From: a virus
Direction: 5' to 3' (one strand)
Virus record (IMG/VR): IMGVR_UViG_3300048883_000844
Coordinates: 1-33,775 of that record
DNA: 33,775 nucleotides
This document shows positions 2,369 through 19,972 of the stretch, piece by piece. The notes below the pieces were generated by a model. That model ran no database searches. It was not told the DNA's origin and saw only the letters and a program-made list of their open reading frames with translations. The first letter of the stretch is position 1, and each line of letters starts with the position of its first letter. The translations under genes and the position numbers were made by a program.

Positions 2369-2668
2369 ATGACAGACGCAGAAGATGATATTTATGAGAG
2401 AATTATACTAGAACAAGAGAATAAAGAGATACAGTGGAGGCTTGTTGTTTCTAAATTTAGAGACGTTGAGTACCTTCACCTTAGAAAATACTATTTAGAC
2501 TTTGAAGGAATATATATGCCAACTAAAGAAGGTGCATGTATCCCTTTTGAGCTCAATAGCTTATCTAACTTATTTGAAGCATTAGTAGAAATACTAAGTT
2601 TAGCAGAAAGTAAGGGGTCTATAGAAGCTCATTTTAAAGGACTTATAAAGGACTTATATGAACAATAA
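2369..2668 (+). CDS. PC4/p15-like ssDNA-binding protein (99 aa)
   Basis: Residues 20-80 fit the PC4 (transcriptional coactivator p15) pattern: a first strand WRLVVSKFRDVEYLHLRKYY, then an acidic turn, YMPTKEGACIPF resembling the 'PTKKGISL' signature, and a C-terminal amphipathic helix (LSNLFEALVEILSLAES). PC4-fold proteins dimerise and bind single-stranded DNA, and phage members occur in replication or early-gene regions. The 3' end overlaps the ligase start by 11 nt, which supports a role with DNA metabolism genes. The family call is by motif memory only; an unrelated beta-beta-alpha protein is possible. Confidence 0.6.
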   Translation: MTDAEDDIYERIILEQENKEIQWRLVVSKFRDVEYLHLRKYYLDFEGIYMPTKEGACIPFELNSLSNLFEALVEILSLAESKGSIEAHFKGLIKDLYEQ

Positions 2669-3593
2669 AGATTTATTGGATAAGGCATCAAAGGCTTACT
2701 ATGAAGGTAAGCCTTTGTTGTCTGACGAAGAGTTTGACAGATTAGCAGAGCGAGAAGGGTATGAGCCTGTTGGCTATAACCCTGACGCTAAACGAAAGCA
2801 TCTGTTTCCATTGTACTCACTGCAGAAAGTATTTGCAGGTGAAGATACTGCCCCAGAATATAAAAGTAAAGTAATTGAAACCCCTAAATTAGATGGGGCA
2901 GCTATTGCAGTTCAGTATAAAGGTGGTAAAGTATTCAAAGTAGTTACAAGAGGGGATGGAGAAGCTGGAGTAGATGTTACAGATAAGTTCATATACAATA
3001 CTATAGTACCTTACTACATTCAAAATAAAGGTGAGTTTCAAATCACTGGTGAAATAGTAGCCCCTAAAGAAATTCCTAATGCTAGGAACTATGCTGCGGG
3101 TGCATTGAATTTGAAAGATACCCAAGAGTTTCTTAATAGAGACCTTACTTTCATTGCGTATAACGTACAGCCTTGTTTCACCGAGTTCTACTCTAACGAT
3201 ATGTATCTATTAGAGTCCCTAAAGTTTAAAGTAGTAACTAAAGGGGATTGGAGTATGTTCCCCGAAGATGGTAAAGTTTTCAGAGTAGACTCTAATACAG
3301 AGTTTGATACTTTAGGATTTACTTCTCATCATCCTAGAGGAGCGTATGCTTTAAAGACTAGGGATGCTGGAGTAGTTACTACATTACTTGATGTAGTTTG
3401 GCAAACAGGAAAATCCGGAAAGGTTACCCCTGTTGCTATCTTAGATGAGATAGTTATTGATGATGCTAAAATTTCGAGAGCTACGTTGAACAACATGGCG
3501 TACATCGAAAGTTTAAACCTGGAAATAGGTTGCCAAGTTGAAGTAATTCGAGCTGGTAAGATAATCCCTTGCATAATCGGAAGGGTCGGTTGA
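2658..3593 (+). CDS. ligA: NAD+-dependent DNA ligase, adenylation and OB-fold half
   Basis: Joins nicks in duplex DNA using NAD+. The order is a shortened Ia domain (residues 1-60, with AYYEGKPLLSDEEFDRL), then the nucleotidyltransferase domain with the catalytic lysine in KLDG (K77) and the VTRGDGEAGVDVT motif (96-108), then an OB fold (about 245-311) with WQTGKSGKVTPVA, SRATLNN and RAGKIIP, the canonical LigA OB signatures. It stops right after the OB fold (IIGRVG, stop TGA), so it lacks the zinc finger, HhH and BRCT domains. Those are encoded separately at 3675-4433 in the same reading frame, after an 81-nt gap containing promoter P3. T5 also encodes its ligase as two proteins. The Ia domain is shorter than in bacterial LigA. 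Confidence 0.93.
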   Translation: MNNKDLLDKASKAYYEGKPLLSDEEFDRLAEREGYEPVGYNPDAKRKHLFPLYSLQKVFAGEDTAPEYKSKVIETPKLDGAAIAVQYKGGKVFKVVTRGDGEAGVDVTDKFIYNTIVPYYIQNKGEFQITGEIVAPKEIPNARNYAAGALNLKDTQEFLNRDLTFIAYNVQPCFTEFYSNDMYLLESLKFKVVTKGDWSMFPEDGKVFRVDSNTEFDTLGFTSHHPRGAYALKTRDAGVVTTLLDVVWQTGKSGKVTPVAILDEIVIDDAKISRATLNNMAYIESLNLEIGCQVEVIRAGKIIPCIIGRVG

Positions 3594-3613
3594 GACATCA
3601 AGAAAATTAACTC

Positions 3614-3642
3614 TTGACTTTTAGTTGAAAGTTAAGTATAAT
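3614..3642 (+). promoter_or_regulatory. Sigma70 promoter P3 between the two ligase genes
   Basis: TTGACT (3614-3619), a 17-bp spacer ending GAAAGTTAAG and TATAAT (3637-3642), continuing as TATAATATA. The short leader contains GAAAATTGA and ends in AATAAG just before ATG 3675. It is the same cassette as P1 and P2, and here it sits inside what is normally one ligase gene. Confidence 0.9.
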
Positions 3643-3674
3643 ATATTATATAGAAAATTGAGAAAACGAATAAG

Positions 3675-4433
3675 ATGATAAGAATAGAACCACCTACCAA
3701 ATGTCCCAGTTGTGGGTCGAAGTTAGAATTAGTAAAAGACCAATTATTTTGTCGCAACCCCGATTGCGATGCTAAATCGAGTAAGAAGTTAGAACACTTT
3801 GCTAAGACACTAAAAATAAAAGGGTTAGGCCCTAAGACTATCGAAAAGTTACCTCTTACATCTATACCCGACATCTATTCGATGTCTAAAAAAGAGATAG
3901 TTGATGAAATAGGAGAGAAGTTAGGAGACAAGTTGTTTAATCAGATTGAATTAAGTAAATCGGTTGATTTAACAGTGTTACTCCCTGCTTTCTCAATATC
4001 ATTAATTGGTTCTTCCGCTTCTAAAAAACTAACTAAACAGATATCTAGCATACGCGATATAACCCACGAGAAATGTTTAGAAGCCGGTCTAGGACCAAAG
4101 TCTTGTACAAACTTACTTAATTGGTACCATGATGAATTTTGTGATAACCTTGAGTATTTACCCTTCTCATTTGAGGCGGAAGTACAAGCAGAAACTACTA
4201 AAAGTATCGGTAAATCAGTCTGTATTACAGGCAAATTAAATGACTTCAAAAATAGAAACCTCGCAAAGACCTATTTAGAATCATTTGGATTTACCGTTAC
4301 AACTTCTATCACTAAAAAGACTGATTATCTTGTAGATGAGGAAGGAAGAAAATCAAGTAAGAGTACTAAAGCAGATAGCTTAGGTATTCCAATTTTAACA
4401 ATCAAAGATATTTTAAAGGAAAATAAATTATGA
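3675..4433 (+). CDS. ligB: NAD+-dependent DNA ligase, zinc-finger/HhH/BRCT half
   Basis: Carries the C-terminal domains of LigA. A four-cysteine zinc finger lies near the N-terminus (CPSCGSKLELVKDQLFCRNP, then DC; C10, C13, C26 and C31). Helix-hairpin-helix repeats follow (KGLGPKTIEKL at about 48-58; a second, AGLGPKSCTNLL, at about 137-148). A BRCT domain covers about 175-252 (SIGKSVCITGKLNDFKNRNL, TKKTDYLV). It should bind and encircle nicked DNA with the catalytic half encoded upstream. The start has no clear Shine-Dalgarno, only an A-rich leader. It overlaps the next gene by 4 nt (ATGA). Length plus the upstream half sums to about 563 aa, slightly short for a bacterial LigA. Confidence 0.92.
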   Translation: MIRIEPPTKCPSCGSKLELVKDQLFCRNPDCDAKSSKKLEHFAKTLKIKGLGPKTIEKLPLTSIPDIYSMSKKEIVDEIGEKLGDKLFNQIELSKSVDLTVLLPAFSISLIGSSASKKLTKQISSIRDITHEKCLEAGLGPKSCTNLLNWYHDEFCDNLEYLPFSFEAEVQAETTKSIGKSVCITGKLNDFKNRNLAKTYLESFGFTVTTSITKKTDYLVDEEGRKSSKSTKADSLGIPILTIKDILKENKL

Positions 4434-5180: not shown

Positions 5181-5213
5181 AGGGGTAGCAAGCAATATTG
5201 CTACCCCTTTTTT
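5181..5213 (+). terminator. Strong intrinsic terminator
   Basis: An 11-bp perfect stem, AGGGGTAGCAA/TTGCTACCCCT (5181-5191 with 5198-5208), a 6-nt loop and a run of six Ts. It closes the P3-ligB-HTH unit. No promoter is visible between it and the helicase operon, so that operon depends on readthrough or antitermination. Confidence 0.93.
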
Positions 5214-5228
5214 GTCGGAGAAAAACGT

Positions 5229-5528
5229 ATGAAATTGATAGCTAAATTCCACGACGTGGATAGCTTTACAGGAACAGAGGCAATTAGAAGAGCAAAAGAC
5301 TTATTAGGTGAGTATACTGATATTCAAGCTTTCCCTAGTACCAGAGATCCTTGGGATGGAATATACTTCTCCATTCAACAGATAATTACTGATGAACAAT
5401 TAAACATTTTATTTGACTCGGGGGCATTATACCCAAGCAAATTAAAAGAATTAAGGTCTAGAATTCTAGGTAGACTAGAAAAAGAGCTAGACGAAGTTAT
5501 ACAGGATAACGAACATAAGGCGAAATAA
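5229..5528 (+). CDS. Hypothetical protein upstream of helicase (99 aa)
   Basis: The ATG at 5229 is chosen because GTCGGAG (5214-5220) precedes it. A longer frame reaching back to 5175 would run through the terminator stem, has no Shine-Dalgarno and is rejected. The product begins MKLIAKFHDVDSF, has a mixed alpha/beta N-terminal part and a charged C-terminal helix (about 70-99). Its stop overlaps the helicase start by 1 nt (TAATG), implying coupled translation. Position makes a helicase-associated role (loader or accessory) conceivable, but no motif supports it. Confidence 0.7.
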   Translation: MKLIAKFHDVDSFTGTEAIRRAKDLLGEYTDIQAFPSTRDPWDGIYFSIQQIITDEQLNILFDSGALYPSKLKELRSRILGRLEKELDEVIQDNEHKAK

Positions 5529-6922
5529 TGGATATTGGGGCAGTAGTTCTACACATGTTAATGGAGGAACAGAGTCTCGACGGTTGGTCAAGAGTTAAGA
5601 AGGACTTCTTCGAGGAGTCATTTAACTCCTTGTATACAGCAATGAATAAGTTCTACCAAGAATACAACTCTATCCCTTCCTTTGAAGAGTTAGAAACTGT
5701 AACCAGAGAAATAAAAACTCAAAAAGACTTAGCTGCTATCCAACTTCTTGAAGTTCCAGATATTGAGTTAGATTTAGCGATTGACGCTTTAATTGACCAA
5801 TACTCCCAAAACGAATCACTAAAGTTACTTGATGACTATGTGGGGCGTATTACTGTAATGGATAGTCTTGAAGTAAAAGAAGGACTATCCGGTATAGTAT
5901 TAAAACTAGACGAAAAGACTCATACAGACGAATCAGTGTCTAATATGAGTGATTTATTACTATTCCAAGAGGAAGGTGTAGAAGAACACACCTGTATACC
6001 TTTAGGAATTAACAACGACTTCGATAGTAAAGTCGGAGGCGCGTACCGAGAAGAGTTAATAATGCTTGGAGGTAAGAGAGGTTCTGGCAAATCCTTAGTA
6101 AGTGCTAATATGGTTGCTAATCAATATGAGATAGGCAATACCTCTATTTACTTTACTATTGAAATGACAGCAATGGAAACCTTTCAACGTATTACAAGTA
6201 TGTTGTCGGGAGTATCTTATGCTAATATTCGTAAGAATAACTTAGATACACAGGAAATGAATGCCTTAGCTAAAACTAGGGCAGGTATGTTCCTAGAAAG
6301 CGAAAAGATATATGATAACTTCTTAGATAATAGAGATGCCTTATCATTCGAGCGTAAACTAACCTCAGAGTGTGCTTTGAAGCCCGATAATCAAATAATC
6401 ATTGTAGATGATAGGTCTCTATCTTTAACGAGTATTGACCTTCAACTGCAAAAAGCTAAAGCACAGTTCGGAGACAGATTATCATTAGTGGTAGTAGACT
6501 ACGTTAACCAAATTGAAACAGGCATAGGTAAAGATTTATATGACTGGCAAAGTCAAATTTTTGCTAGTAAAAAACTGAAAGAGTTTGCTAGGAAGTACGA
6601 TTTGGCAATGGTTAGCCCTTATCAGATTGATGAAGGCGGTGGAACTAGGTTTGCTAAAGGACTATTAGATAGTCCGGATAGTGCCTTTTTAATTGACGCA
6701 CACTCTAAAGAGGACGGTGCTATGACATTTACTTCCACTAAGGTTAGAAGTGGTCCTGATATAGAGTTTACTAGTACAATGAACTGGGATACTTTAAAAT
6801 TAGGGCCTACTACTAAACAGAAACCTTCGGGTCAGAGTGATGATGGAGAAACAGTATCAGTTAAAAACATAGGCAAAAAACAGAAGACTCCTAAGAAAGA
6901 AGGGAGTGATATGCCATGGTAG
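5528..6922 (+). CDS. dnaB-like: Replicative DNA helicase, DnaB-like (464 aa)
   Basis: Hexameric 5'-3' replicative helicase of the RecA/DnaB superfamily. The N-terminal 130 residues are helical with a DnaB-N-like layout (FNSLYTAMNKFYQEYNSIPS). The RecA core starts near 155 with a G-x-x-x-x-F-D motif. Walker A is GGKRGSGKS (181-189), the glutamate-bearing ITFTIEMT-like strand is near 206-214, and Walker B is VVVDYVNQI (321-329). The H4-like SPYQIDEGG segment is near 363-371, with STKVRSG at 403-409. The C-terminal 35 residues are a basic, flexible tail. The gene overlaps the primase gene by 7 nt, matching the helicase-primase pairing seen in many phages. Confidence 0.92.
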   Translation: MDIGAVVLHMLMEEQSLDGWSRVKKDFFEESFNSLYTAMNKFYQEYNSIPSFEELETVTREIKTQKDLAAIQLLEVPDIELDLAIDALIDQYSQNESLKLLDDYVGRITVMDSLEVKEGLSGIVLKLDEKTHTDESVSNMSDLLLFQEEGVEEHTCIPLGINNDFDSKVGGAYREELIMLGGKRGSGKSLVSANMVANQYEIGNTSIYFTIEMTAMETFQRITSMLSGVSYANIRKNNLDTQEMNALAKTRAGMFLESEKIYDNFLDNRDALSFERKLTSECALKPDNQIIIVDDRSLSLTSIDLQLQKAKAQFGDRLSLVVVDYVNQIETGIGKDLYDWQSQIFASKKLKEFARKYDLAMVSPYQIDEGGGTRFAKGLLDSPDSAFLIDAHSKEDGAMTFTSTKVRSGPDIEFTSTMNWDTLKLGPTTKQKPSGQSDDGETVSVKNIGKKQKTPKKEGSDMPW

Positions 6923-7758
6923 TAACAGAGATACTGGATAAACATAACATACCTTTTACGGTTAAAGGACAAGATTACGTAGTAAGCTGCCTTAACCCCG
7001 AGCACGAGGATAATAACCCCTCTATGCATATAGACCAGCAGGAGGGGGCGTTCCACTGCTTTAGTTGTGGCTTTAAAGGAAATGTATTTAAGTTCTTTAA
7101 TGTAGATAAAAACTGGCAAGATGTCAAAGTATCTAAACTAAGGAATAAGATTGCGGGTATTAAAGCTGCTTCTACAGGGCTTAAACTACCTCCTGGAGCA
7201 GTACCGTATAATAGACACTTCAGAGACATAGATAAGAGAACTTTAGCAGAGTTCGGAGCGTTTACTCAAGATAAGGATTTCAATGGTAGGATAGTATTTC
7301 CTCTACCAGACATTACAGGAAAGATACGTGCCTTTATTGGCAGGTACACTGATAGTAATGCTCATCCTAAGTATATGATTAAACCTTCTGGCGCTGAACT
7401 ACCTCTATTCCCCTCGATTGTCTCTCCTATTAACGGAAGTATAATTTTAGTTGAGGGAATATTCGATGCTTTAAATCTAATAGATAAAGGGTTGAACAAT
7501 GCAGTGGCAGTACTTGGAGCGAATAACCTTCAGTTAGAAGTGCTCAAGGCACTGAAACTACAAGGAGTTCATACAATCTATACTATGTTTGATGAAGATG
7601 ATGCAGGTAGAAAAGCAGGACTAACAGTACAAAGATTACTAGAAGAGGACTTTATAATAAGTGATGATACTAGACTAGAATTACCAGATGGCTTAGACCC
7701 TGGAGACCTGTCCGCAATGGACATAAAACACATTAAGGAGAATTTATATGGAAGTTAA
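6916..7758 (+). CDS. dnaG-like: DNA primase, DnaG-type (280 aa)
   Basis: Makes RNA primers at the fork. The CHC2 zinc-binding motif is C25-x4-H30 ... C48-x2-C51. The TOPRIM domain has LVEGIFDAL (catalytic E180) and the acidic FDEDDAG motif (225-231). It is short for DnaG (bacterial enzymes are about 600 aa) and lacks a C-terminal helicase-binding domain, as is usual for T5- and T7-like phage primases. It starts inside the helicase gene and ends inside the halogenase gene, with an 11-nt overlap, so helicase, primase and halogenase are translationally linked. Confidence 0.92.
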   Translation: MVVTEILDKHNIPFTVKGQDYVVSCLNPEHEDNNPSMHIDQQEGAFHCFSCGFKGNVFKFFNVDKNWQDVKVSKLRNKIAGIKAASTGLKLPPGAVPYNRHFRDIDKRTLAEFGAFTQDKDFNGRIVFPLPDITGKIRAFIGRYTDSNAHPKYMIKPSGAELPLFPSIVSPINGSIILVEGIFDALNLIDKGLNNAVAVLGANNLQLEVLKALKLQGVHTIYTMFDEDDAGRKAGLTVQRLLEEDFIISDDTRLELPDGLDPGDLSAMDIKHIKENLYGS

Positions 7759-9298
7759 ATCAATTTGTATAGTAGGAGGAGGCACCTCTGGCTGGAGCAT
7801 GGCACTAGCTCTGCACAAAAAATTACCACAAGTAGATGTAACATTAGTAGAGTCTAGTAGTATAGGGACCATTGGAGTAGGGGAGGCAACTCAACCAGGT
7901 GTACACCACTTTATTAATAGTTACTTGGGACTAAAGGAAGAGGATTGGATGCCTGCTTCTGATGCTATTTATAAGTCTGGAGCATTATTCCGAAACTTTA
8001 ATACTTTAGACACGGAGGATGTAGTACACCACACCTTCATGGCAGACTCCGAAGAGGGACAAAATATATACAACTGGGGCATTAAGAAAGCAATACTAGA
8101 GAACGTTCGATCTACCGACTACGCAGATACCTTTTACGCAGCCCCTCACATGATAGATAAGCGAAAGTTCTCAAAGAGAGAAGGTAGAGTTTGGTACGCG
8201 TCTCATCTAGATGCATCTAAGTTCGCAGACTTTGCTAAGGAGCATACCTGCAATTATATTAACCATATTATAGGTACGATTAGCAAAGTAATCACAGGGG
8301 ATAAAGGCATAGAAAAAATAGTTTTAGAGGGGGGGAAAATTGTGTATGCGGATCTATTTATAGATTGTTCGGGGTTTAAGTCTCTACTACTAGAGAAGTC
8401 TTTGGGAGGCTCTTTTAAAGATATGACCAAAGTATTACCTAATGATACAGCGCTTGCAACTAGAATTCCTTATACAAATAAAGAGGAACAGATAAATGGG
8501 GGCACGGATTGCCAAGCTTTAAGTTCTGGATGGGCATGGACTATCCCTTTATGGTCTAGAATAGGGTCTGGATACGTATACAGCAGTAAATTTATTTCAG
8601 AAAAAGAGGCGCTACAGGAGTTTAAAAGCCTACTATTACTAAGCCACTCTAAGGAGCTCGTGGACACCTTGACGTTCAAAAATATACCTATGAAAGTTGG
8701 GTACCAGGAAACTCCTTGGATAAAAAATTGTGTAGCAGTAGGGCTATCCTCGCAGTTCGTAGAGCCTTTAGAGTCTACGGGCCTACTATTTGTTAGTGCT
8801 TCTGTGCAGCAGATTATTGACCTACTTAAAAGTAATGACTGTCACTATACGGACCTAACTAGGTCTAGGTATAATAAGTATAGTAAGAAACTATTTGATG
8901 AAGCCTTTCAGTTTGTACTACTACACTATTTAAATACTAAAAGAGGGGACACTGCCTACTGGAGGCATATAAGTGATAATATTAAGGTGGAGCCTTTTAT
9001 ACTAGATTTTATAAGTCAGATAGGCTCAGGGAACTGGGAGCTAGAACTTAGAGAGATATTCCCTACACTTAGCTGGGAGCATATTATAGCCGGGTTCAAT
9101 ATAGTAGATATTGCGCACAATGTATTATTAGATGGTATAAGGTTAGATAGTTACGGAGATCAAGTACCTGATAGAGCGACAGAGATAATAAACGAATTAC
9201 AACTTAATAAAGGACTACGGTTAAAAGAGGTAGAAAACATGCCTACTTTATACCAATACTTAAAGGAGGGTATATATGGCAACGATAGCGATAGTTGA
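7748..9298 (+). CDS. Flavin-dependent (tryptophan-type) halogenase (516 aa)
   Basis: FADH2-dependent halogenases make a hypohalous acid from halide and O2 and pass it along a tunnel to a lysine that directs halogenation. Seen here: the dinucleotide-binding GGGTSGW (10-16) near the N-terminus, GVGEATQP (43-50), the candidate catalytic lysine K76 in YKSGALF (aligned by eye to PrnA/RebH K79), the diagnostic W-x-W-x-I-P as GWAWTIP (261-267), and FVEPLESTGL (337-346), whose E342 matches PrnA E346. All hallmark residues are present and length is typical (about 510-540). It overlaps primase (11 nt) and DNA polymerase (23 nt) and has its own AAGGAG. The substrate cannot be read. A cyanophage halogenase, VirX1, preferring iodide, is known. 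A flavin reductase is not encoded in this window. Confidence 0.93.
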   Translation: MEVKSICIVGGGTSGWSMALALHKKLPQVDVTLVESSSIGTIGVGEATQPGVHHFINSYLGLKEEDWMPASDAIYKSGALFRNFNTLDTEDVVHHTFMADSEEGQNIYNWGIKKAILENVRSTDYADTFYAAPHMIDKRKFSKREGRVWYASHLDASKFADFAKEHTCNYINHIIGTISKVITGDKGIEKIVLEGGKIVYADLFIDCSGFKSLLLEKSLGGSFKDMTKVLPNDTALATRIPYTNKEEQINGGTDCQALSSGWAWTIPLWSRIGSGYVYSSKFISEKEALQEFKSLLLLSHSKELVDTLTFKNIPMKVGYQETPWIKNCVAVGLSSQFVEPLESTGLLFVSASVQQIIDLLKSNDCHYTDLTRSRYNKYSKKLFDEAFQFVLLHYLNTKRGDTAYWRHISDNIKVEPFILDFISQIGSGNWELELREIFPTLSWEHIIAGFNIVDIAHNVLLDGIRLDSYGDQVPDRATEIINELQLNKGLRLKEVENMPTLYQYLKEGIYGNDSDS

Positions 9299-11540
9299 TA
9301 AAGCACCAAGTGCTGTTAATTACAGTAGATATTTTAACTTTGAATTTGATAACTATCATTTATCCTCTAAAAAAGTAAAGAAGTTACTAAAGAAGGATGT
9401 GGACTTAGAGTTTGATTCAGACTCTTATGAGTATGTTATTTTAATCGGCTCAGAAGCAAGTAAGTTCATTGGAGGAATTAGTTCAGTAACAGAGTTCGCG
9501 GGTCATTTAGTAGATGATAAATTTATACCAATGATTAACCCTGCAATGCTTAGTTTCAAACCTGAAGCAAAACCTTTGTTTGATAGAGCTTGTGAAAAGT
9601 TACATAATTATGTGTCGGGGGAGAAACCACCGACAGTTACGGGAGATTTTGAGGGGATAGTAGATGAAGAAAGGGCAAATGAATATCTTAGATCGATACT
9701 TGAGGATGATGCAGTTAAATTTATTGCGTGTGACACGGAAACAACGGCTTTATACCCGAGAGACGGTTACGTATTGGGCATTAGCATTTCACATAAGAGT
9801 AAACAAGGTGTTTACATATCTACCGAGTGTATTGGAGAAGACACTGAAAGACTTATGCAAGCTTTGTTCTCCAGTAGACTAGTAGTATTCCACAACGCTA
9901 AGTTCGACCTAAAGATGCTTGAGTATCACTTTGATTTTAAGTTTCCAAGTGTGTCAGACACAATGCTTATGCACTACGTTTTAGACGAGACACAAGGGTC
10001 TCACGGACTCAAGCAACTCGCAATGAAGTACACAGAGTACGGAGATTACGACAAAGCGTTAGATGAGTTTAAGACCAACTATTGTAGGGAACATAAGATA
10101 TTGAAGGGGGATTTTAGCTATGACTTAATACCTTTTGATATTATGTATCCTTATGCTGCAATCGATACTGCAGTAACCTATGACTTATATCAGATGTTTG
10201 TAAAAAAGATTGTAAAAAATGTTCAACTAAAGAAGGTTTACAAGGAACTAATGGTTCCAGGTATGCTTTTCTTGAAAGATGTTGAAGAGAATGGGGTACC
10301 TTTCGACCTACCAAGGTTACAAAAGGTACAAGGCTTAATGGAGACAGAAATCCAAGAAGCGAAAGAGAAATTATATGGATATAAAGAAGTACATACGTTT
10401 GAGGAAGAACAGGGTAAAGTCTTCAACCCTAATAGTACGCAGCAGCTCAGGGTACTTTTGTTTGACTACCTTGGGCTTACTCCTACTGGGAAGCTCACTG
10501 GTACTGGGGCTGCTTCTACTGATGCGGAAGTTTTAAAGAAGCTGGCAGAAGAACATCCTATCCCGGGAGTAATCTTAGATATTAGGCAGAAGTCTAAAAT
10601 TAAGAATACATACTTGGATAAGATTATCCCTGCTTTAGATAAGGATAGTAGAATTAGAACAGGTTTTAACCTAACTTCTACTACATCTGGTAGATTATCT
10701 AGTTCTGGTAAGATTAATATGCAACAACTGCCTAGAGACAATGCGGCAGTAAAAGGGTGTATTAAAGCAAAACCTGGCTACAAGATATTACAACAGGATT
10801 TAGCAACTGCGGAAGTTTATGTTGCGGCTATCCTAAGTGGCGACAAGAATCTACAGAATGTATTTAAGAGTGGAGGAGACTTACACTCTACAGTGGCTAA
10901 AATGGTATTTGCACTTCCGCACGATGTGGCTGATATTAAAGAGAAAGCCTCTACACAGAGACAGGCTGCAAAAGCTATTACGTTTGGTATTATGTATGGT
11001 AGTGGCCCTGCTAAGGTGGCAGAGACAGTTACCAAAGATAGTGGTAAGCCTTTCTCTATTCAACAAGCGAAAGATACAATCGCTAAGTATTTTAGAACCT
11101 TTCCTAGACTAAAGGATTGGTTGCAAATGTCTAAGGAGGACATAGAAGCAAATGGATATATCTACAGTATTCTCGGACGTAAGCGTCGTCTTGGCAATGT
11201 ATTTAGTAATGACAAGGGTGTTGCATCACACGAAGTGCGTAGCGGCATTAATTTCCTTATCCAGTCTGTGGCTAGTGACATTAATCTACTCGCTGGTGTG
11301 GAGCTAAATCAATGGATTAAAGACAACGATGTTGATGCTAAGATTATCGCATTAGTACATGACTCTTTAGTACTAGAAGTAGCAGATAAAGATATTGAAG
11401 AAGTATCTAAGGTTATGGCTGAATTTACTCAGAAAGACCGAGGCTGCTCTATCCCCGGTCAGCCGATCGGAGTAGATTTAGATATTGGAGAGGACTATGC
11501 CTTTGGGAAATTTGACAAACAGTACCCAGAGTTTCTCTAA
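9276..11540 (+). CDS. polA: DNA polymerase, family A (754 aa)
   Basis: The phage replicase. It has a proofreading 3'-5' exonuclease with CDTETTAL (D153, E155), FHNAKFDLKML (N207, D211) and YPYAAIDTAVTYDLY (D297). The polymerase domain has TSGRLSSSGKINMQQLPRD (470-488), motif A QDLATAEVY (catalytic D508), motif B RQAAKAITFGIMYG with Phe570 at the position of E. coli F762, and motif C LVHDSLVLEV (H695, D696). Motif A departs from the usual D-x-S-x-x-E-L-R (it reads D-L-A-T-A-E-V-Y). In motif C the usual Glu after His-Asp is Ser. The N-terminal 130 residues have no visible 5'-nuclease. AGGAGG at 9264-9269 is the best Shine-Dalgarno in the operon. It overlaps the halogenase by 23 nt. Confidence 0.95.
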   Translation: MATIAIVDKAPSAVNYSRYFNFEFDNYHLSSKKVKKLLKKDVDLEFDSDSYEYVILIGSEASKFIGGISSVTEFAGHLVDDKFIPMINPAMLSFKPEAKPLFDRACEKLHNYVSGEKPPTVTGDFEGIVDEERANEYLRSILEDDAVKFIACDTETTALYPRDGYVLGISISHKSKQGVYISTECIGEDTERLMQALFSSRLVVFHNAKFDLKMLEYHFDFKFPSVSDTMLMHYVLDETQGSHGLKQLAMKYTEYGDYDKALDEFKTNYCREHKILKGDFSYDLIPFDIMYPYAAIDTAVTYDLYQMFVKKIVKNVQLKKVYKELMVPGMLFLKDVEENGVPFDLPRLQKVQGLMETEIQEAKEKLYGYKEVHTFEEEQGKVFNPNSTQQLRVLLFDYLGLTPTGKLTGTGAASTDAEVLKKLAEEHPIPGVILDIRQKSKIKNTYLDKIIPALDKDSRIRTGFNLTSTTSGRLSSSGKINMQQLPRDNAAVKGCIKAKPGYKILQQDLATAEVYVAAILSGDKNLQNVFKSGGDLHSTVAKMVFALPHDVADIKEKASTQRQAAKAITFGIMYGSGPAKVAETVTKDSGKPFSIQQAKDTIAKYFRTFPRLKDWLQMSKEDIEANGYIYSILGRKRRLGNVFSNDKGVASHEVRSGINFLIQSVASDINLLAGVELNQWIKDNDVDAKIIALVHDSLVLEVADKDIEEVSKVMAEFTQKDRGCSIPGQPIGVDLDIGEDYAFGKFDKQYPEFL

Positions 11541-12012
11541 TATACATTGGCCGGTCTGGGTTATAAGGAACCATGAGCACATAGGGGCAGGGTTAATAAC
11601 AGATAGATATGGTATCAGGAGAATAGATTTAGCCGATAAGACTTTATCCTTTCCTATGCGTAGAGTCGCTATTAAGAAGTTAAAAGACTATAAGGTCTAC
11701 CCATTGAGTAAAGCTGTATGGAACTTTAAAGACTTACTAGCTTCCAAGATGTTACACTTTATAGATTTTGAAGGTAATATATATAACTATAAAAAGAGCG
11801 TATTTCACCCTTTAGTATATAGAAAAATAATATATAAAAAGTACACGGATACGACTACTATATTTAGAGTTAAAGGAGTTCCTGCCTTCTTTGAAGTAGC
11901 AGGTAAACTTAACTTAGAAGCTGAGTATGCAGGACTACTACATATAGATAGAGGTTATTTACTATATGAAGTAACTACTGAGAAACTAAAAGACACTAAA
12001 AGGAAAATATGA
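11497..12012 (+). CDS. Hypothetical protein between polymerase and helicase (171 aa)
   Basis: The likely start is ATG 11497 with GGAGAGG 4-6 nt upstream, inside the 3' end of polA; a TTG at 11485 is the in-frame alternative. The product is basic and beta-rich with many aromatic residues (WPVWVIRNHEHIGAG, then YNYKKSVFHPLVYRKIIYKK). This could suit nucleic-acid contact, but no family is recognised and there is no signal peptide or membrane span. It ends with a 4-nt overlap (ATGA) into the SF2 helicase, so the two are probably made together. Confidence 0.68.
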   Translation: MPLGNLTNSTQSFSNIHWPVWVIRNHEHIGAGLITDRYGIRRIDLADKTLSFPMRRVAIKKLKDYKVYPLSKAVWNFKDLLASKMLHFIDFEGNIYNYKKSVFHPLVYRKIIYKKYTDTTTIFRVKGVPAFFEVAGKLNLEAEYAGLLHIDRGYLLYEVTTEKLKDTKRKI

Positions 12013-13304
12013 GCGGAAAAGCAATTTTATCAAACAGAATCTATATGTCCGCTGACGCTAAACGACAGAAACTTATAGACCAGGAATTGACATATTCAAT
12101 TCCTTCTTACAATCCAATGGAGCCTCCTACTATAATTAAGAATATGGGTAGGATTAGTAGTAAGTTAATAACAGTTCCAATGGGTAGAATGGATTTAATA
12201 CCTGAGGACTTTGAAATAATTGATAAAAGAACTTTAGTGCCGGTAACTTTTCCCGATTTCAAATTTGACCTTCGGGATAGCCAAGCCAAAGTTTACAACG
12301 AAGTTGAGGACAATGCAATTATTAACGCTTTTGTAAGTTGGGGTAAGACTTTTACAGCGATAGCCATTGCGGCTAAGTTAGGGCAGAAAACCTTAATTGT
12401 AGTTCATACATTGGCGTTAAGAAAGCAGTGGGAAGATGAGATAGAAAAGTGCTTGGGCATTGTTCCAGGAGTCATTGGAAGTGGAAAGTTTGATACTGAC
12501 CCGATAATTGTTGTATCTAATGTACAGACTCTTGGTAAGAAAATGACAGAAATTCAAAAAATGTTTGGAACAATAATTTTGGATGAAATGCATCACGTAA
12601 GCGCACCTACATTTTCTAATATAATTGATAAGTGTAGCGCTAGATATAAGATAGGACTAAGTGGTACACTTCAGCGAAAGGATGGTAAACACATTATATT
12701 CAATGATTACTTTGGTTACGATGTACATCAACCTCCTAAAGAGAACTACATAACCCCTAGAGTTGTATTAGTTAAGTCGGAGACGCGGTTCCCCGATAGT
12801 GCAAAACTTCCCTGGGCTAAGAGAGTAAATCAGGTGGCATATGACGAGAACTATCAGAAGATGATTGCACAACTTGCTTCAGTATATGCAGCAAAAGGCC
12901 ATAAAGTATTGGTAGTAAGTGATAGGGTCCAATTTTTGAACAGGTGCGCCGACCTAACCGGAAATAATGCAATATGTATTACAGGAGAGCTACCACATGA
13001 ACAAAGAGATGAAGAGTTGGACAAGATTAGAACTGGAGAAGCAGATATCCTATACGGGTCGCAAAGCATCTTCAGTGAGGGTATTTCAGTTAATGAGCTT
13101 AGTTGTCTTATTCTGGGTACTCCAATCAATAATGAACCTCTACTAACTCAGCTGATAGGCAGGGTCATTAGAAAAATGGAAGGCAAGATACAGCCAGTAG
13201 TATTAGATATTCACTTAAAGGGTAACACTGCTGCAAGACAAGCTAAAGCGCGTTCAGCAGTATATATCAAGCAAGGATATGATATTAAAGTGGTAGCTGG
13301 TTAA
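12009..13304 (+). CDS. SF2 DNA helicase, T5 D10 / UvsW-like (431 aa)
   Basis: Branch-migrating or recombination-type helicase. Motifs: Q-like LRDSQAKVYNEV (88-99), Walker A region AFVSWGKTFTAIA (107-119), motif Ia LIVVHTLALRKQW, motif II LDEMHH (191-196), motif III GLSGTLQR (216-223) and motif VI LIGRVIRK in the C-terminal RecA lobe. The Walker A reads S-W-G-K-T, without the first glycine of G-x-G-K-T, but K113 and T114 are kept. Position between polymerase and the recombination nuclease genes matches T5 D10. A sigma70 promoter follows at once, so this gene ends the long replisome unit. Confidence 0.88.
   Translation: MSGKAILSNRIYMSADAKRQKLIDQELTYSIPSYNPMEPPTIIKNMGRISSKLITVPMGRMDLIPEDFEIIDKRTLVPVTFPDFKFDLRDSQAKVYNEVEDNAIINAFVSWGKTFTAIAIAAKLGQKTLIVVHTLALRKQWEDEIEKCLGIVPGVIGSGKFDTDPIIVVSNVQTLGKKMTEIQKMFGTIILDEMHHVSAPTFSNIIDKCSARYKIGLSGTLQRKDGKHIIFNDYFGYDVHQPPKENYITPRVVLVKSETRFPDSAKLPWAKRVNQVAYDENYQKMIAQLASVYAAKGHKVLVVSDRVQFLNRCADLTGNNAICITGELPHEQRDEELDKIRTGEADILYGSQSIFSEGISVNELSCLILGTPINNEPLLTQLIGRVIRKMEGKIQPVVLDIHLKGNTAARQAKARSAVYIKQGYDIKVVAG
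12083..12103. repeat. Intragenic 8-bp inverted repeat
   Basis: GGAATTGA-CATAT-TCAATTCC is a perfect inverted repeat within the start of the SF2 helicase gene. It might be a protein-binding site, but coding sequence alone can explain it. Confidence 0.3.
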
Positions 13305-13313
13305 AAATAATGC

Positions 13314-13342
13314 TTGACAAATTGGTTAAATATTGGTATAAT
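13314..13342 (+). promoter_or_regulatory. Consensus sigma70 promoter P4
   Basis: TTGACA (13314-13319), a 17-bp spacer and TATAAT (13337-13342), followed by ATAAATTCGAAAATGGAG. The leader resembles P1-P3 in its GAAAAT motif but ends in a GGAG-TTG start instead of ATAAGATG. It drives the 128-aa gene and the ssDNA-binding protein. Confidence 0.93.
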
Positions 13343-13367
13343 ATAAATTCGAAAATGGAGATTTAAG

Positions 13368-14458: not shown

Positions 14459-15394
14459 ATGAAGATTTTATTCACCGCAGATTGGCACATTAAGTTAGGT
14501 CAGAAAAGCGTACCACGGGAGTGGGCAACTAATAGGTACGAGCTGCTATTTGCAGAACTATACAAGTTAGAGAAGACAGTGGATTTACACGTTATAGGGG
14601 GAGACCTGTTTGATAGGATGCCTACGTTAGACGAGTTAAGCCTGTACTTCAAGTATATAAAAGATATTAGTGTAAGAACTATTATCTATCCTGGTAACCA
14701 CGAAGCAGTAAAGAAGGATACCTCATTCTTTACTAACCTAAAAGAAGTTACAAAAGCAATAAACCCTTTAGTAGAGATTATTGATGACTACTATAAGCTA
14801 GAAGATATGGACTTTATTCCTTATAATAAGCTAAAAGAGTTTGACCCAGAGGACTTTGAGGGTAGGACTCTATTTACACATGTAAGAGGTGAGATCCCCC
14901 CTCACGTAAGTCCGGAAATTGACTTGAAGAAACTAGAAGGATGGGAGCTAGTTATTGCAGGAGATTTACACTCTCACTCTAACTCACAGGGTAATATAGT
15001 GTACCCTGGAAGTCCTGTTACTACCTCCTTTCATAGGAACCCTGTAGATACAGGAGTACTATTATTCGAAAGTGACACCTTAGAATGGTCTTGGCTTAAA
15101 CTAAAGCTACCTCAGCTTATTAGGCAAACGGTTAGTCACCCCGATCAAATGATTAAGACTAATTATCATCATACAATATATGAATTAGAAGGGGATGTTA
15201 GTGACTTAGTAAAAGTAGACAAGGACAATGAGTTATTAGATAAAAAGTTAATAAAGAGACATAATGACTCTGCACTTATACTAACCCCGGAGATGACATT
15301 AGAGGATGAACTGTCTGAGTATCTTCAGTTTATTATGGGATTAAATGAAAAGAAAGTTAAAGAAGTTTTAGGAGTATTTCATGATTATACTTAA
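14459..15394 (+). CDS. sbcD-like: SbcD/Mre11-like nuclease subunit (T4 gp47, T5 D12 type)
   Basis: Metallophosphoesterase subunit of a recombination exonuclease that resects DNA ends and helps degrade host DNA. Motifs in order: TADWH (D8, H10), GGDLFD (D49), PGNHE (N80, H81), a late FTHVRGEIP strand, and AGDLHSHSN, the last metal-ligand cluster. The 311-aa length fits phage gp47 proteins. The C-terminal part after about 200 is the capping and partner-binding region. The 3' end overlaps the SbcC-like gene by 14 nt, the standard arrangement for this complex. Confidence 0.93.
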   Translation: MKILFTADWHIKLGQKSVPREWATNRYELLFAELYKLEKTVDLHVIGGDLFDRMPTLDELSLYFKYIKDISVRTIIYPGNHEAVKKDTSFFTNLKEVTKAINPLVEIIDDYYKLEDMDFIPYNKLKEFDPEDFEGRTLFTHVRGEIPPHVSPEIDLKKLEGWELVIAGDLHSHSNSQGNIVYPGSPVTTSFHRNPVDTGVLLFESDTLEWSWLKLKLPQLIRQTVSHPDQMIKTNYHHTIYELEGDVSDLVKVDKDNELLDKKLIKRHNDSALILTPEMTLEDELSEYLQFIMGLNEKKVKEVLGVFHDYT

Positions 15395-17183
15395 AAGTTT
15401 AAAATGGTCTAATTGCTTTTCGTATGGAAAAGATAATAGCCTAGACTTAGAAAAAGACCTTATAGTACAGTTAGTAGGTACAAATGGTACGGGTAAGAGT
15501 TCAATTCCTTTATTAATCGAAGAAGCTCTATTTAATAAGAATTCTAAAGGTATAAAGAAAGTAGACATCGTTAATAGAAATAATAACGAGAATGGGTACA
15601 GTATATCTCTAGATTTCAGCGTAGATAGCAGAGAGTATAGTATATCAGTAGATAGAAAGTCTAGTATTAAAGTAGTTTTAATATGTGATGGAGAAGATAT
15701 ATCATCACATACTGCTACTAATACGTTTAAGACTGTACAAAATGTTATAGGTATGGACTTCAAAACCTTTAGTCAGTTAGTATATCAAAGTACTACTAGT
15801 TCATTACAGTTCCTAACTGCTACAGATACTAATAGAAAGAAGTTTCTAATTGAATTACTGAATTTAGATAACTATTTGACTCTATTTGATAACTTTAAAT
15901 CTGCACACAAGGAAGCATCTAATGAGGTGTCTGAGATTAGGGGAAGTATAGAAACTATTAATAGTTGGATATCTACTAATCCTATAAAAAGTACTACGAA
16001 AAAAGAATTAGTAGAAGTACCAGAAGCTCCAGAAGACATAATCTCAGAAAGAGCTTTAGTAAAAGCAAAACTTGATAATATACTAGAAATTAATAATAAG
16101 ATTAATATTAATAATCAGTACAAAAGTCAGTTATCTGAACTTAGCGCTAATGAATTAACTAAAGAAGTTGCGATGCCTGAGGGCATTGGAGCATTGAATG
16201 AGGAATTTACGTCTTTAAAAACTATTATTGCTCAAGCAAATACAGTACTACATAAAATGGAAAGTTTGGGGGATAGTTGTCCTACTTGTTTGCAAGATAT
16301 TGACTCCGATAAAACAGAAGAATTGGTAGACGAGCAAAGAAAGACAGTATCAATAAGTACCAAAAGAAAGGGAGAAGTCCAAAACCTTGTAGTTAATCTA
16401 AAGAGGCAACTTCAAGACTATAAAAATCATCAATCAACTATTAAAAATTTCGAAAAGCTATCTACTCTAATAGATAATAAGCTGCCCAGCACTACTGAAG
16501 ATAAGTTAGAATTAGAAGAAGAAATTAATAAATTTACTGTCGAAATTTCTAAAAAACAAACTGAGATTAGGGATATATCATCTCAAAATAATGAAATTAC
16601 AAAATTTAATACTGAACTAGATTACTTAATTAAACAAGTAAAAGAGTTTAAATTAACGTTACTTTCTGAAGAATCTAAACTAAAGGCAACCAATGATGTA
16701 TATGCTAATTTAGAAGTATTAAAGAAAGCCTTCAGTACTAATGGTTTAGTGGCTTACAAGATTGAAAATCTTGTTAAAGACTTGGAAGATTTAGTAAACC
16801 AGTACTTATCTGAGCTGTCTGATGGAAGATTCGGATTAGAATTTGTTGTTAGTAATGATAAACTTAATGTTGTTATATCAGATGAAGGTAGAGATATTGA
16901 TATCCTTGCCTTAAGTAGCGGCGAGTTGGCCCGAGTTAACACCTCAACATTACTAGCCATTAGAAAACTAATGAGTACCTTGTCTAAATCTAAAATTAAT
17001 GTACTGTTTTTAGACGAAGTAATTGGGGTACTAGACGACGAAGGCAGGGAGAAGCTTATTGAAGTTCTACTTAAAGAGCACGACCTCAATACCTTCTTAG
17101 TGAGCCATAATTGGTCTCACCCATTACTTACTAAAATCAATGTTATTAAAGAGAAGAAGATATCGAGGTTAGAATGGCAGTAG
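15381..17183 (+). CDS. sbcC-like: SbcC/Rad50-like ATPase subunit (T4 gp46, T5 D13 type)
   Basis: SMC-like ABC ATPase partner of the preceding nuclease. Walker A is GTNGTGKS (33-40). Long coiled coils (about 170-290 and 310-470) flank a zinc hook, CPTC (C300, C303). The C-terminal lobe has the ABC signature LSSGELARVN and Walker B VLFLDEVIGVLDDEG, with an H-loop His in LVSHNW. The 600-aa length fits phage gp46 proteins (short coiled coils compared with about 1000 aa in bacterial SbcC). The stop lies inside the next gene (10-nt overlap). Confidence 0.93.
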   Translation: MIILKSLKWSNCFSYGKDNSLDLEKDLIVQLVGTNGTGKSSIPLLIEEALFNKNSKGIKKVDIVNRNNNENGYSISLDFSVDSREYSISVDRKSSIKVVLICDGEDISSHTATNTFKTVQNVIGMDFKTFSQLVYQSTTSSLQFLTATDTNRKKFLIELLNLDNYLTLFDNFKSAHKEASNEVSEIRGSIETINSWISTNPIKSTTKKELVEVPEAPEDIISERALVKAKLDNILEINNKININNQYKSQLSELSANELTKEVAMPEGIGALNEEFTSLKTIIAQANTVLHKMESLGDSCPTCLQDIDSDKTEELVDEQRKTVSISTKRKGEVQNLVVNLKRQLQDYKNHQSTIKNFEKLSTLIDNKLPSTTEDKLELEEEINKFTVEISKKQTEIRDISSQNNEITKFNTELDYLIKQVKEFKLTLLSEESKLKATNDVYANLEVLKKAFSTNGLVAYKIENLVKDLEDLVNQYLSELSDGRFGLEFVVSNDKLNVVISDEGRDIDILALSSGELARVNTSTLLAIRKLMSTLSKSKINVLFLDEVIGVLDDEGREKLIEVLLKEHDLNTFLVSHNWSHPLLTKINVIKEKKISRLEWQ

Positions 17184-17686: not shown

Positions 17687-18094
17687 TCAGGTGCTTCCAT
17701 TTTTCAAGCCTTTGATGATATTTTTTACATTATAAGCAAACCCTTTCACCCTGTGTGTGTTTTTAGGGGCTTGAAACAAGTTGTCTGTATCACTGTATTT
17801 ACTTGATTTAACAGTGTCCATCCAAATAGTGCAATCCGCATTAACTATATCTCTGCTTTCTTCTAAAGGACAAATAAAGTCCATAACCACATACTCTTTA
17901 CTTGATTGCAATGATAGTTCATTAATTCGTTTGGCTTGTCTTACCCTTCCTTCTTTACTGAAATCCCAATCATCTGTTTCTTTCCTTATTTCATCAGCAT
18001 TTAAGTAATCAGCATCTAATAAATTAATCAACTCACCTGACAAGGTTGTTTTACCTGAGCCTGATAACCCCATAACAAGTATTCTAAAACTCAT
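17687..18094 (-). CDS. cysC-like: APS-kinase-like P-loop kinase (135 aa)
   Basis: APS kinases phosphorylate adenylyl sulfate to PAPS, the sulfate donor of sulfotransferases. Motifs: P-loop GLSGSGKTT near the N-terminus, LNADEIRKE corresponding to CysC LDGD-x-x-R, DWDFSKEGRVRQAKRI matching the CysC F-S-x-x-x-R...RRI block, and DFICPLEESR matching the 'ISP' strand. The C-terminal part (TIWMDTVKSS, DTDNLFQAP) follows a small phage family often labelled adenylylsulfate kinase. It is shorter than CysC (about 200 aa). Start chosen at 18094 (MSFRILVMG); the longer frame to 18130 would run deeper into the upstream gene and add 12 residues of no family match. It overlaps the sulfotransferase by 11 nt. 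Last gene before the terminator. Kinase substrate is not proved; other small phosphoryl acceptors are possible. Confidence 0.78.
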   Translation of the reverse strand: MSFRILVMGLSGSGKTTLSGELINLLDADYLNADEIRKETDDWDFSKEGRVRQAKRINELSLQSSKEYVVMDFICPLEESRDIVNADCTIWMDTVKSSKYSDTDNLFQAPKNTHRVKGFAYNVKNIIKGLKNGST

Positions 18095-18731
18095 AACCAA
18101 ACTTCTCAAAAATAGAGTTATCTTTTGCATATACCATGTCTATCAGTTCATCTGAATAGTATTCTCTATAAGGGCTTCTTTCAGTTGTATTTTTATGAGG
18201 CGTTCCAAATATCATATTCTCTTGTTTAGCTGTTATATTACAATACTCTTTTAGTATGTCTATAAGGTCAGTTGTAAGACTCTCAAATCGCATAAAACGA
18301 ACGCCCTTAGTATCAAGCCCTGTCATCCTATGAGACAACCAAGAATAATAACCAATATTGTCAGGGTATTCTAAAAAATCTTTATTAGTTAGATTTGGTA
18401 GTGAGGTTTTTCTCCAATCATGTCTCATAAGACAGTGTTGTTTTTTACTTCCTTTAATTTGTAGCATTAAACGTAGAGCGCTATCAAAATCATCTACACC
18501 TGTCATCAAAGGATGATTTATATTTTTATAAAAATGAAATGCTGAAACATACCAATCAAAAGGATTTCTTATTGTGCTTACAAACTTAGTACGATTTCCT
18601 TTATACCTACTAAGGGGTAAGTGGGAGTCAACCACGCGACTTTCAGGAAAAACACTTTTCAATATAGCGTTCGTGAAAGTTCCACCTGTTCTTGATGTGT
18701 GTATGTAGGCAAAGTTCTTAGTTTCTAGCAT
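18084..18731 (-). CDS. Sulfotransferase family protein A (215 aa)
   Basis: Sulfotransferases move a sulfuryl group from PAPS to hydroxyl or amine groups. The 5'-phosphosulfate loop is HTSRTGGTFTN (11-21), and the 3'-phosphate site is VSTIRNPFDWYVSAF (51-65; R55, S63). The C-terminal end (SPYREYYSDELIDMVY, then IFEKFGYEF) is typical of the Sulfotransfer_2/5 type. It has no signal peptide, so it acts in the host cytoplasm. It overlaps both neighbours (14 and 11 nt) and sits directly upstream of the gene for a probable PAPS-forming kinase. Acceptor unknown: phage tail protein, host surface glycan precursor or small molecule are all possible. Confidence 0.85.
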   Translation of the reverse strand: MLETKNFAYIHTSRTGGTFTNAILKSVFPESRVVDSHLPLSRYKGNRTKFVSTIRNPFDWYVSAFHFYKNINHPLMTGVDDFDSALRLMLQIKGSKKQHCLMRHDWRKTSLPNLTNKDFLEYPDNIGYYSWLSHRMTGLDTKGVRFMRFESLTTDLIDILKEYCNITAKQENMIFGTPHKNTTERSPYREYYSDELIDMVYAKDNSIFEKFGYEF

Positions 18732-19461
18732 ATATTGGTATTAACTTAAACCTTGTAAACCCTAATGATTTTAGTTTTTCTAAATCAAAAAACACCATAC
18801 CAAGGTCTTCTCTTGGCTTTAACTGTTTACTGCACGTTACAGGTCTTACCTTTGCTACCGTATTGTTGTTAATCTTAGAAATAACAGAATAACATATTTT
18901 AGATGGACAGTTATAAGCGCATCCTGCATTGGCAAAAAGAATGACTCTATTTTTGTTTTTTATATCTTTTAGACTTTCATAATCTTCAGTTACCTCCATC
19001 GGCAACACAACAGAATCATAAATTTCTAGGTTTTTATCAATATCTGAAAACTTAATGTTTTTAATCACACTCGCTTCTATTTTGTACTTTGGGTAATCTT
19101 CCCTAATTCTGAAGGCAAGTTCATCATTAGTACAGATTATTGAATTTAATTTGTTGTGATGTTTCTCTAATAAGGGCTTAGTCTTTTCATAGTCTTCTTC
19201 CGTGAAAAATGAGTTAGTTAGGGGAATCCTAAATCCTATTCCGTTCTTGTATAGATACTTCAAGTCATCTTTTGTAACATTAGGCGAAGAAAAACCCCTC
19301 CCACCATACAAAGGCACATACGTTGAAAATCCATACACACTGTCTATTCGACCCTCTCCTACTACATTTTTAAACCTTACCAACCACCTATCCATAGAAC
19401 AAGAGTTAGGCTTGTTTCTAGCCGAAACAGTGAAACTTAAAACATTATCTAACTCTATCAT
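18718..19461 (-). CDS. U32-peptidase-like cysteine protein (247 aa), function unknown
   Basis: Has four C-terminal cysteines in the pattern NAGC-x3-CP-x4-C (C181, C185, C190) plus C210, resembling the N-x-G-C...CP motif of U32 family proteins, which in several cases assist Fe-S- or O2-independent hydroxylation pathways. The N-terminal region holds SCSMDRWLVRFKNVVGEG and a run of alternating strands and helices fitting a TIM-barrel-like fold (GFRIPLTNS, EASVIKNIKF, VVLPMEV). I recall similar unnamed proteins in cyanophages, but cannot verify it. It overlaps the oxygenase by 17 nt and the sulfotransferase by 14 nt, with weak Shine-Dalgarno, so it is translated by coupling. Confidence 0.65.
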   Translation of the reverse strand: MIELDNVLSFTVSARNKPNSCSMDRWLVRFKNVVGEGRIDSVYGFSTYVPLYGGRGFSSPNVTKDDLKYLYKNGIGFRIPLTNSFFTEEDYEKTKPLLEKHHNKLNSIICTNDELAFRIREDYPKYKIEASVIKNIKFSDIDKNLEIYDSVVLPMEVTEDYESLKDIKNKNRVILFANAGCAYNCPSKICYSVISKINNNTVAKVRPVTCSKQLKPREDLGMVFFDLEKLKSLGFTRFKLIPIYARN

Positions 19462-19972
19462 AATTTAGTTTACTACTCTTCTCAAAAGACCACCCCCAAT
19501 TAACGGTTATTCTCGGCTTACTCCCCACTACAGGAGTGCTACTATGACCAACCTTGTCAGGCTCATAAGCCACAATATCCCTTTCCTTTACATTAAGGAC
19601 TTTAGAATCATAAACGGGCATACCGCCTTTATCAGGAACGCTTAAAAAAAGATTAAATCTAAAATGGTTTCTGTCTTTAAAAGGGTCAACGTGTGGTTGC
19701 ACAAAGCCACCTTCGATATGACGACTTAGGAAACAAGGGTGGGCGCGTACTTCGTAATATTCAAAACCTTTCAAACCGTAGTCTTTTAAAATTCTTTCTC
19801 CTATTTCTGTAACTAGAGAATTACTCTTTAAGTTAAAAAGGGCATTAGAGCGCCTGAAGTCGCCCCAAACAGGATGAGGAGTAAGATTTGGCTCGCACTC
19901 ATAAAACCAAGACAGAAGTTTTTTATGCTCTTCTTCTGTAATAAATTCTCGGTTTATAATTTTCTTATCCAT
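19445..19972 (-). CDS. 2-oxoglutarate/Fe(II)-dependent oxygenase (175 aa)
   Basis: Double-stranded beta-helix dioxygenase of the prolyl-4-hydroxylase-like group. The metal triad is H94-x-D96 (VQPHVDPFKD) and H143 (VGHSSTP), with R154 (KPRITVNWGW) placed to bind 2-oxoglutarate. SVPDKGGMPVYDSKV forms the middle strands. The fold spans about 70-162. Such enzymes in phages often lie near tail-fibre genes and could hydroxylate a fibre residue or a small substrate. The start overlaps the upstream sulfotransferase by 8 nt (TTATGGATAA). A hydroxylated side chain would be a ready acceptor for sulfation, which is why its position between two sulfotransferases matters. Confidence 0.87.
   Translation of the reverse strand: MDKKIINREFITEEEHKKLLSWFYECEPNLTPHPVWGDFRRSNALFNLKSNSLVTEIGERILKDYGLKGFEYYEVRAHPCFLSRHIEGGFVQPHVDPFKDRNHFRFNLFLSVPDKGGMPVYDSKVLNVKERDIVAYEPDKVGHSSTPVVGSKPRITVNWGWSFEKSSKLNYDRVR

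Follow-up and report, generated by a model that had tools for sequence, protein, structure and literature searches.

Why a gene for a flavin-dependent halogenase should lie between the genes for DNA primase and DNA polymerase, and whether this position says anything about the substrate of the enzyme, is the question raised by the viral record IMGVR_UViG_3300048883_000844, whose 33,775 nucleotides are here called the window. A preliminary description of this DNA had read the placement as a tie to the replication proteins and as a possible clue to the substrate. The features concerned are the following, all on the plus strand:

2658–4433, +, split NAD-dependent DNA ligase in two ORFs, a marker of the T5-like module (Pfam, PHROG)
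5528–6922, +, DnaB-like replicative helicase (Pfam, PHROG)
6916–7758, +, DNA primase with CHC2 zinc finger and Toprim domain (Pfam, PHROG)
7735–7751, +, left border of the exchanged segment, Shine-Dalgarno-like AAGGAG followed by TATATGG
7748–9298, +, flavin-dependent halogenase, assigned to the VirX1 type, 516 aa (ORF, Pfam, PHROG, motifs, model)
9263–9279, +, right border, Shine-Dalgarno-like AAGGAGG and TATATGG at the polymerase start
9276–11540, +, T5-like family A DNA polymerase with 3'-5' exonuclease domain (Pfam, PHROG)
12009–13304, +, DNA helicase of the T5-like module (Pfam, PHROG)
13305–13367, +, second cargo slot after the helicase, empty in the window (comparison with relatives L002, L003 and L005)
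14459–17183, +, SbcD/SbcC-like pair, T5 D12/D13 (PHROG)

The operon around the halogenase is a T5-like replication module, which also includes a D5-like protein, an SSB and a RusA-like resolvase. Vibrio phage pVp-1 (Demerecviridae) has the same order of ligase, ligase, D5, DnaB, primase, polymerase, helicase, SSB, D12 and D13, and the window polymerase compares with those of Vibrio T5-like phages at 47%. The primase–polymerase interval of pVp-1 is, however, without an annotated gene, whereas the window has the halogenase inserted there, its ORF overlapping that of the primase by 11 bp and that of the polymerase by 23 bp, in agreement with the overlaps first described. A terminator-like hairpin at 5181–5208 (11 pairs, then TTTTT) is found upstream of the DnaB–primase–halogenase–polymerase stretch and may make two transcription units of one operon.

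The ORF encodes an intact flavin-dependent halogenase with all hallmark residues, and the family match is far beyond chance. It starts with ATG and stays open across 516 codons. The protein matches Pfam Trp_halogenase over residues 6–461 (E 9.6e-99; PF04820 whole-protein score 331.7 bits against a curated cut-off of 21) and PHROG 2928, 'tryptophan halogenase' (E 5.5e-119). The GxGxxG motif is present as GGGTSG (residues 10–15) and the WxWxIP motif as WAWTIP (residues 262–267), while Lys76 occupies the position of the catalytic lysine and Glu342 lies inside EPLE 339–342, so that the hallmark motifs, active-site residues included, are there as the preliminary description had stated. Neither residue varies in alignments of 19 and of 68 phage proteins. 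In VirX1 the catalytic lysine is K79, according to PMC8407142. Promoter-like sites did not exceed those in shuffled sequences, and a promoter belonging to the halogenase was rejected; codon usage carries no mark of recent arrival and was uninformative on recent transfer. Among the window proteins scanned, none was recognisable as a flavin reductase.

The nearest solved protein is VirX1 of cyanophage Syn10 (PDB 6qgm), matched over residues 2–512 of 516 (E 2.7e-81). An AlphaFold2 model built with 67 viral homologues (mean pLDDT 89.8) found VirX1 as its best Foldseek match (TM 0.89–0.90), and VIA-align superimposed the two at 2.0 Å over 494 residues, the lowest rmsd among the matches listed; VIA Z was slightly higher for PrnA and others than for VirX1. 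PrnA, RebH, Thal and PyrH aligned at 2.4–2.9 Å, MibH gave a VIA Z of 38.6, and weak matches pointed to LodB and QhpG, flavoproteins that modify proteins. The kinship to VirX1, the phage enzyme named beforehand, is thereby supported. A tree of 67 proteins pairs the window halogenase with L035 (support 100) and places the two on a mainly phage side, including one bacterial row, at a moderate support of 83–88. The enzyme belongs with the phage halogenases of VirX1 type, with which it shares full-length homology, a fold including the C-terminal part, the catalytic Lys and Glu and a place in a phage genome. It differs from VirX1 in being distant in sequence (33% identity to the syn9 orthologue), and even the nearest homologue (L035/L209) is 45% identical. 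Querying the viral contigs with the halogenase sequence alone gave nothing, an alignment query being needed to find homologues, and the two-sequence subclade, used as a query, recovered only L035/L209 and distant members. One 'bacteriophage' record from human faeces with a Trp halogenase, MT835646, was set aside because it has a TonB receptor and reads as a piece of bacterial DNA.

Like PrnA, RebH, Thal and PyrH, the window enzyme has the Pfam Trp_halogenase domain, the fold and the active-site Lys and Glu, but it lacks the YY..E..FW of the tryptophan 6/7 type and groups with phage enzymes. This segment, which we take to bind tryptophan in PrnA and RebH, is absent in the alignment from the window protein and from its phage and VirX1 relatives, and present in the bacterial proteins L116, L119, L121, L122, L127 and L169. 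The protein thus does not read as a tryptophan 6/7-halogenase; since enzymes of the tryptophan-5 type are likewise without the segment, tryptophan may still be its substrate.

The significance of the position was assessed by reading across the primase/polymerase junction of relatives in the viral collection with polymerases 78–97% identical. The junction is empty in nine loci (L003, L006, L196–L198, L199 and L200–L202), which, L200–L202 being near-identical and L196–L198 alike, amount to about five lineages. Two further relatives, L002 and L005, hold a single unrelated gene (262 and 265 codons, respectively), and among the junctions read only that of the window holds a halogenase. A core replisome gene would be conserved at this place in relatives; the halogenase is missing from every other junction read, including those next to polymerases 91–97% identical. 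Likewise, none of 13 sister records carries it in its sequenced part, these records being fragments. One halogenase-bearing junction is known and the sister records are fragmentary, so that the gene need not be fixed in the lineage. The halogenase is an optional, exchangeable passenger and not part of the DNA-copying machinery. The empty junction is probably the older state, the halogenase having been gained, because it is the widely distributed one.

The borders of the exchanged segment are sharply placed. DNA matches to five relatives end at 7750–7751, and similarity picks up again at 9263 (L002, L003) or at 9273–9274 (L005, L006). The left-border segment AAGGAGAATTTATATGG equals the one that in L003, whose junction is empty, stands ahead of the polymerase start, and a fresh AAGGAGG upstream of the polymerase ATG comes with the insert. 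Both borders carry the word TATATGG, the two copies being separated by 1,528 bp. The exchange thus runs from start codon to start codon and leaves both genes translatable.

The relatives also differ at other places in the operon. The second slot, after the helicase, is filled in L003 (4273–5022) by a PHROG 24927 protein that is oxygenase-like by motif reading, and in L002 (13808–14431) and L005 (5425–6057) by proteins that are sulfotransferase-like by motif reading; Pfam gave no match for the L003 and L005 proteins, and NCBIfam none for those of L003, L002 and L005. A third optional gene, encoding a membrane-like protein of fewer than 90 aa, sits between the ORF after the polymerase and the helicase in L002 (12265–12507) and L005 (3881–4123), and has no counterpart in the window.

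The surroundings of viral halogenases elsewhere were surveyed at 80 loci, within five gene positions; many of these loci run off the end of a contig, and neighbours were detected with single sequences as queries, so that the counts are lower bounds. A 2OG oxygenase gene was found at 54 loci at least and a tail gene at 24 at least. Replication or recombination genes (SbcCD, UvsW, clamp or gp41 type) were found at 6 of the 80, and a polymerase or primase gene at none within the same distance. Halogenases stand beside tail-fibre genes and 2OG oxygenases in syn9, Sf-FP1, P-RSM6, S-CREM1, P-TIM40, S-WAM1, S-SZBM1 and Sf-CH11, the S-CREM1 locus also encoding a collagen-like protein and several 2OG oxygenases. 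The nearest homologue, L035/L209, has a tail-fibre assembly gene on one side and head-tail adaptor (neck) genes on the other, that of S-SRM01 lies between a tail fibre and an adhesin, and that of HTVC008M is flanked by a 2OG oxygenase and the large terminase. Other settings are the vicinity of psbA (S-MbCM6) and a sugar/carbamoyltransferase cluster (S-SSM7). Three of the 80 directly abut SbcCD-type genes, the halogenase of S-B64 follows SbcC, and in the marine virus AG-345-O18 (L032, 1542–6419) the gene comes directly after genes read as nrdA/nrdB. This reading is the sole nucleotide-metabolism context seen. In the 177-kb circular record of syn9 the halogenases (33–36 kb) and the polymerase (140–143 kb) are more than 70 kb apart; there the orthologue of VirX1 has a second halogenase and a PHROG 7084 gene as its neighbours, with a 2OG oxygenase further on, and does not lie in a replication operon. 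The survey shows no general link of phage halogenases to replication; nucleic-acid contexts (SbcCD-type, nrdA/nrdB) are not absent, and gene neighbourhoods are correlations. As a separate observation, syn9 has a gene for a 2OG oxygenase between uvsX and gp41 (L208, 19102–19671), a further tailoring-type gene inside a replication cluster.

The preliminary description had itself named gene order in related phages as a point on which the link could fail, and on this half the outcome is clear: the gene is absent from the relatives' junction, which is empty or holds another gene, and homologues elsewhere lie apart from replication genes. A replication link drawn from position is ruled out by the empty junctions of the relatives together with these contexts, and with it goes the use of the position as a clue to the substrate. 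The phage 'tryptophan halogenases' of PHROG 2928, from cyanophages and Pelagibacter phage HTVC008M, are of the same family and share its accessory distribution and mobile position. They differ in that the annotated members occur mostly in T4-like phages, the window gene being the only one found in a T5-like replication module. T4-like cyanophages likewise make up most of the phage records listed with a halogenase; the 60 matches listed include no Vibrio phage and no other T5-like phage, and scans with the polymerase and primase did not find a second T5-like halogenase.

The other occupant of the slot proved informative. The inserts of L002 and L005 match PHROG 7084 (E 2e-7 and 1e-8), a family that accounts for 20 of the 150 immediate neighbours of the 80 viral halogenases, outnumbered only by 2OG oxygenases, and that was detected by phmmer within five genes at 27 of the 80 loci. 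Among 50,697 phage records, all 14 near full-length matches to syn9 gp43 lie directly beside a halogenase, these records representing about seven distinct phages rather than 14 independent events. Remoter matches come from haloarchaeal viruses and from a few cyanophages and fall outside the listed halogenase set, which indicates that PHROG 7084 also exists without a halogenase. The halogenase and PHROG 7084 are exchangeable members of one cargo set. A literature search found no paper on DUF6065.

A model of the L002 protein, built with 28 relatives (pLDDT 76.9), listed dUTPases in all of the best 50 VIA rows, at a Z of 9.6 (values of 8–10 being moderate) and 2.5 Å over 117 residues; nearly all Foldseek rows were dUTPases, with weak E-values. 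However, dUTPase motifs 1 (SAGxDL) and 5 (GSTG) occur in none of the 29 PHROG 7084 members, motif 2 (RSG) occurs as chance-like words only, in 5 of the 29, and at the motif-3 position the L002 and L005 copies are without the aspartate found in most members. PHROG 7084 is thus predicted to share the dUTPase fold and is not thereby a dUTPase; an active dUTPase was rejected as its catalytic motifs are missing. It is conceivable, and somewhat doubtful, that halogenase and PHROG 7084 form a functional pair, the latter as substrate-binding or carrier partner, which together with 2OG oxygenases and sulfotransferases would modify phage or host surface proteins, and that T5-like phages swap members of the set in the replication operon.

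Near the tail genes, the window holds a minus-strand cassette at 17687–20720 that encodes an APS-kinase-like protein (Pfam E 2.6e-8), a sulfotransferase (18084–18731; Pfam E 3.4e-6), a second sulfotransferase-like ORF, a PHROG 13746 protein resembling a 2OG oxygenase and one protein with no match. Its composition suggests phage-encoded sulfation; no match to its proteins was found in the sister L002. The tail region further encodes a glycine-rich protein (21109–22128, PHROG 10745), and Gly_rich_2 proteins are among the immediate neighbours of 4 surveyed viral halogenases.

Taken as a whole, the best explanation, which we hold to be probable, is a cargo VirX1-type halogenase inserted in an exchangeable slot of a T5-like replication operon, expressed early and acting on an aromatic substrate. 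The accessory gene would have entered the slot start codon to start codon, taking over the pre-existing ribosome-binding site and carrying its own such site for the polymerase. Because both sites are in place, the operon would remain intact and the halogenase would be made together with the replication proteins, which lends support to the earlier proposal that its translation is tied to the operon. The operon would thus serve an exchangeable tailoring enzyme as a means of early expression. In flavin-dependent halogenases a separate reductase supplies reduced FAD, which reacts with O2 and halide, and the hypohalite reaches the active lysine before the aromatic substrate is halogenated (PMC8407142). 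By analogy with this family, halogenase activity is expected here, with reduced host flavin, O2 and halide yielding hypohalite that Lys76 would steer onto an electron-rich aromatic substrate, activated by Glu342. The same source describes VirX1 as preferring iodide and accepting many bulky substrates in an open active site.

The substrate is the least certain part of this explanation. An aromatic protein residue or a host metabolite is most likely, DNA or nucleotides are unlikely, and the remaining probability goes to other targets, a surface glycan or lipid for example. A tailoring role, on proteins or on surface molecules, is favoured by the company that the homologues keep with 2OG oxygenases, tail genes and PHROG 7084. 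That the tailoring set, alongside its oxygenases, modifies aromatic residues of a tail fibre or adhesin, or of a host surface protein, is a serious possibility, consistent with the clustering of viral homologues with oxygenase and tail-fibre genes and with the S-CREM1 locus. MibH acts on peptide-bound tryptophan and has the halogenase fold, so that such a substrate would be possible in this fold, and the weak LodB and QhpG matches point the same way; on the other hand, the window gene sits among the replication genes and apart from those for the tail. Halogenation of a free small host aromatic (tryptophan, indole or a relative), with altered host metabolism, signalling or competition as the result, is also possible, if uncertain. 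PrnA, RebH, Thal and PyrH use free tryptophan and align with the model, a family precedent for this reading. Altered host metabolites have been proposed (PMC10452541), as has, for the cyanophage cluster of S-SSM6a type, either a halogenated, secondary metabolite or decoration of the capsule (PMC7824862). Against it stand the missing YY..E..FW, a segment that tryptophan-5 enzymes also lack, and the open, bulky-substrate active site of VirX1 as given in PMC8407142.

Modification of a nucleotide precursor or of the phage DNA, the place in the replisome operon then reflecting the substrate, is improbable. The gene does lie between primase and polymerase, and a small probability is kept for this substrate by the predicted dUTPase fold of the occupant of the same slot in sister records and by the nrd-adjacent homologue; yet closely related polymerases have no halogenase beside them, PHROG 7084 lacks dUTPase motifs 1, 2 and 5 and, in L002 and L005, the motif-3 aspartate, the usual neighbours of the homologues are oxygenases or virion genes, and no nucleotide-modification enzyme was recognised among the window proteins scanned, the record being a 33.8-kb fragment. 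The single occurrence in the lineage would also fit a decayed gene, an assembly join or a monooxygenase with other chemistry, a view that we regard as very improbable given the open frame, the invariant Lys and Glu and the high-confidence model; a join would in addition require two chance events, as both borders match relatives and proper start sites are kept.

For the family, the position in the replisome operon is dropped as a clue to the substrate, and the natural swaps at one slot point instead to PHROG 7084 as a candidate partner of the halogenase. The locus furthermore puts a VirX1-type halogenase into a T5-like phage, not a T4-like one.
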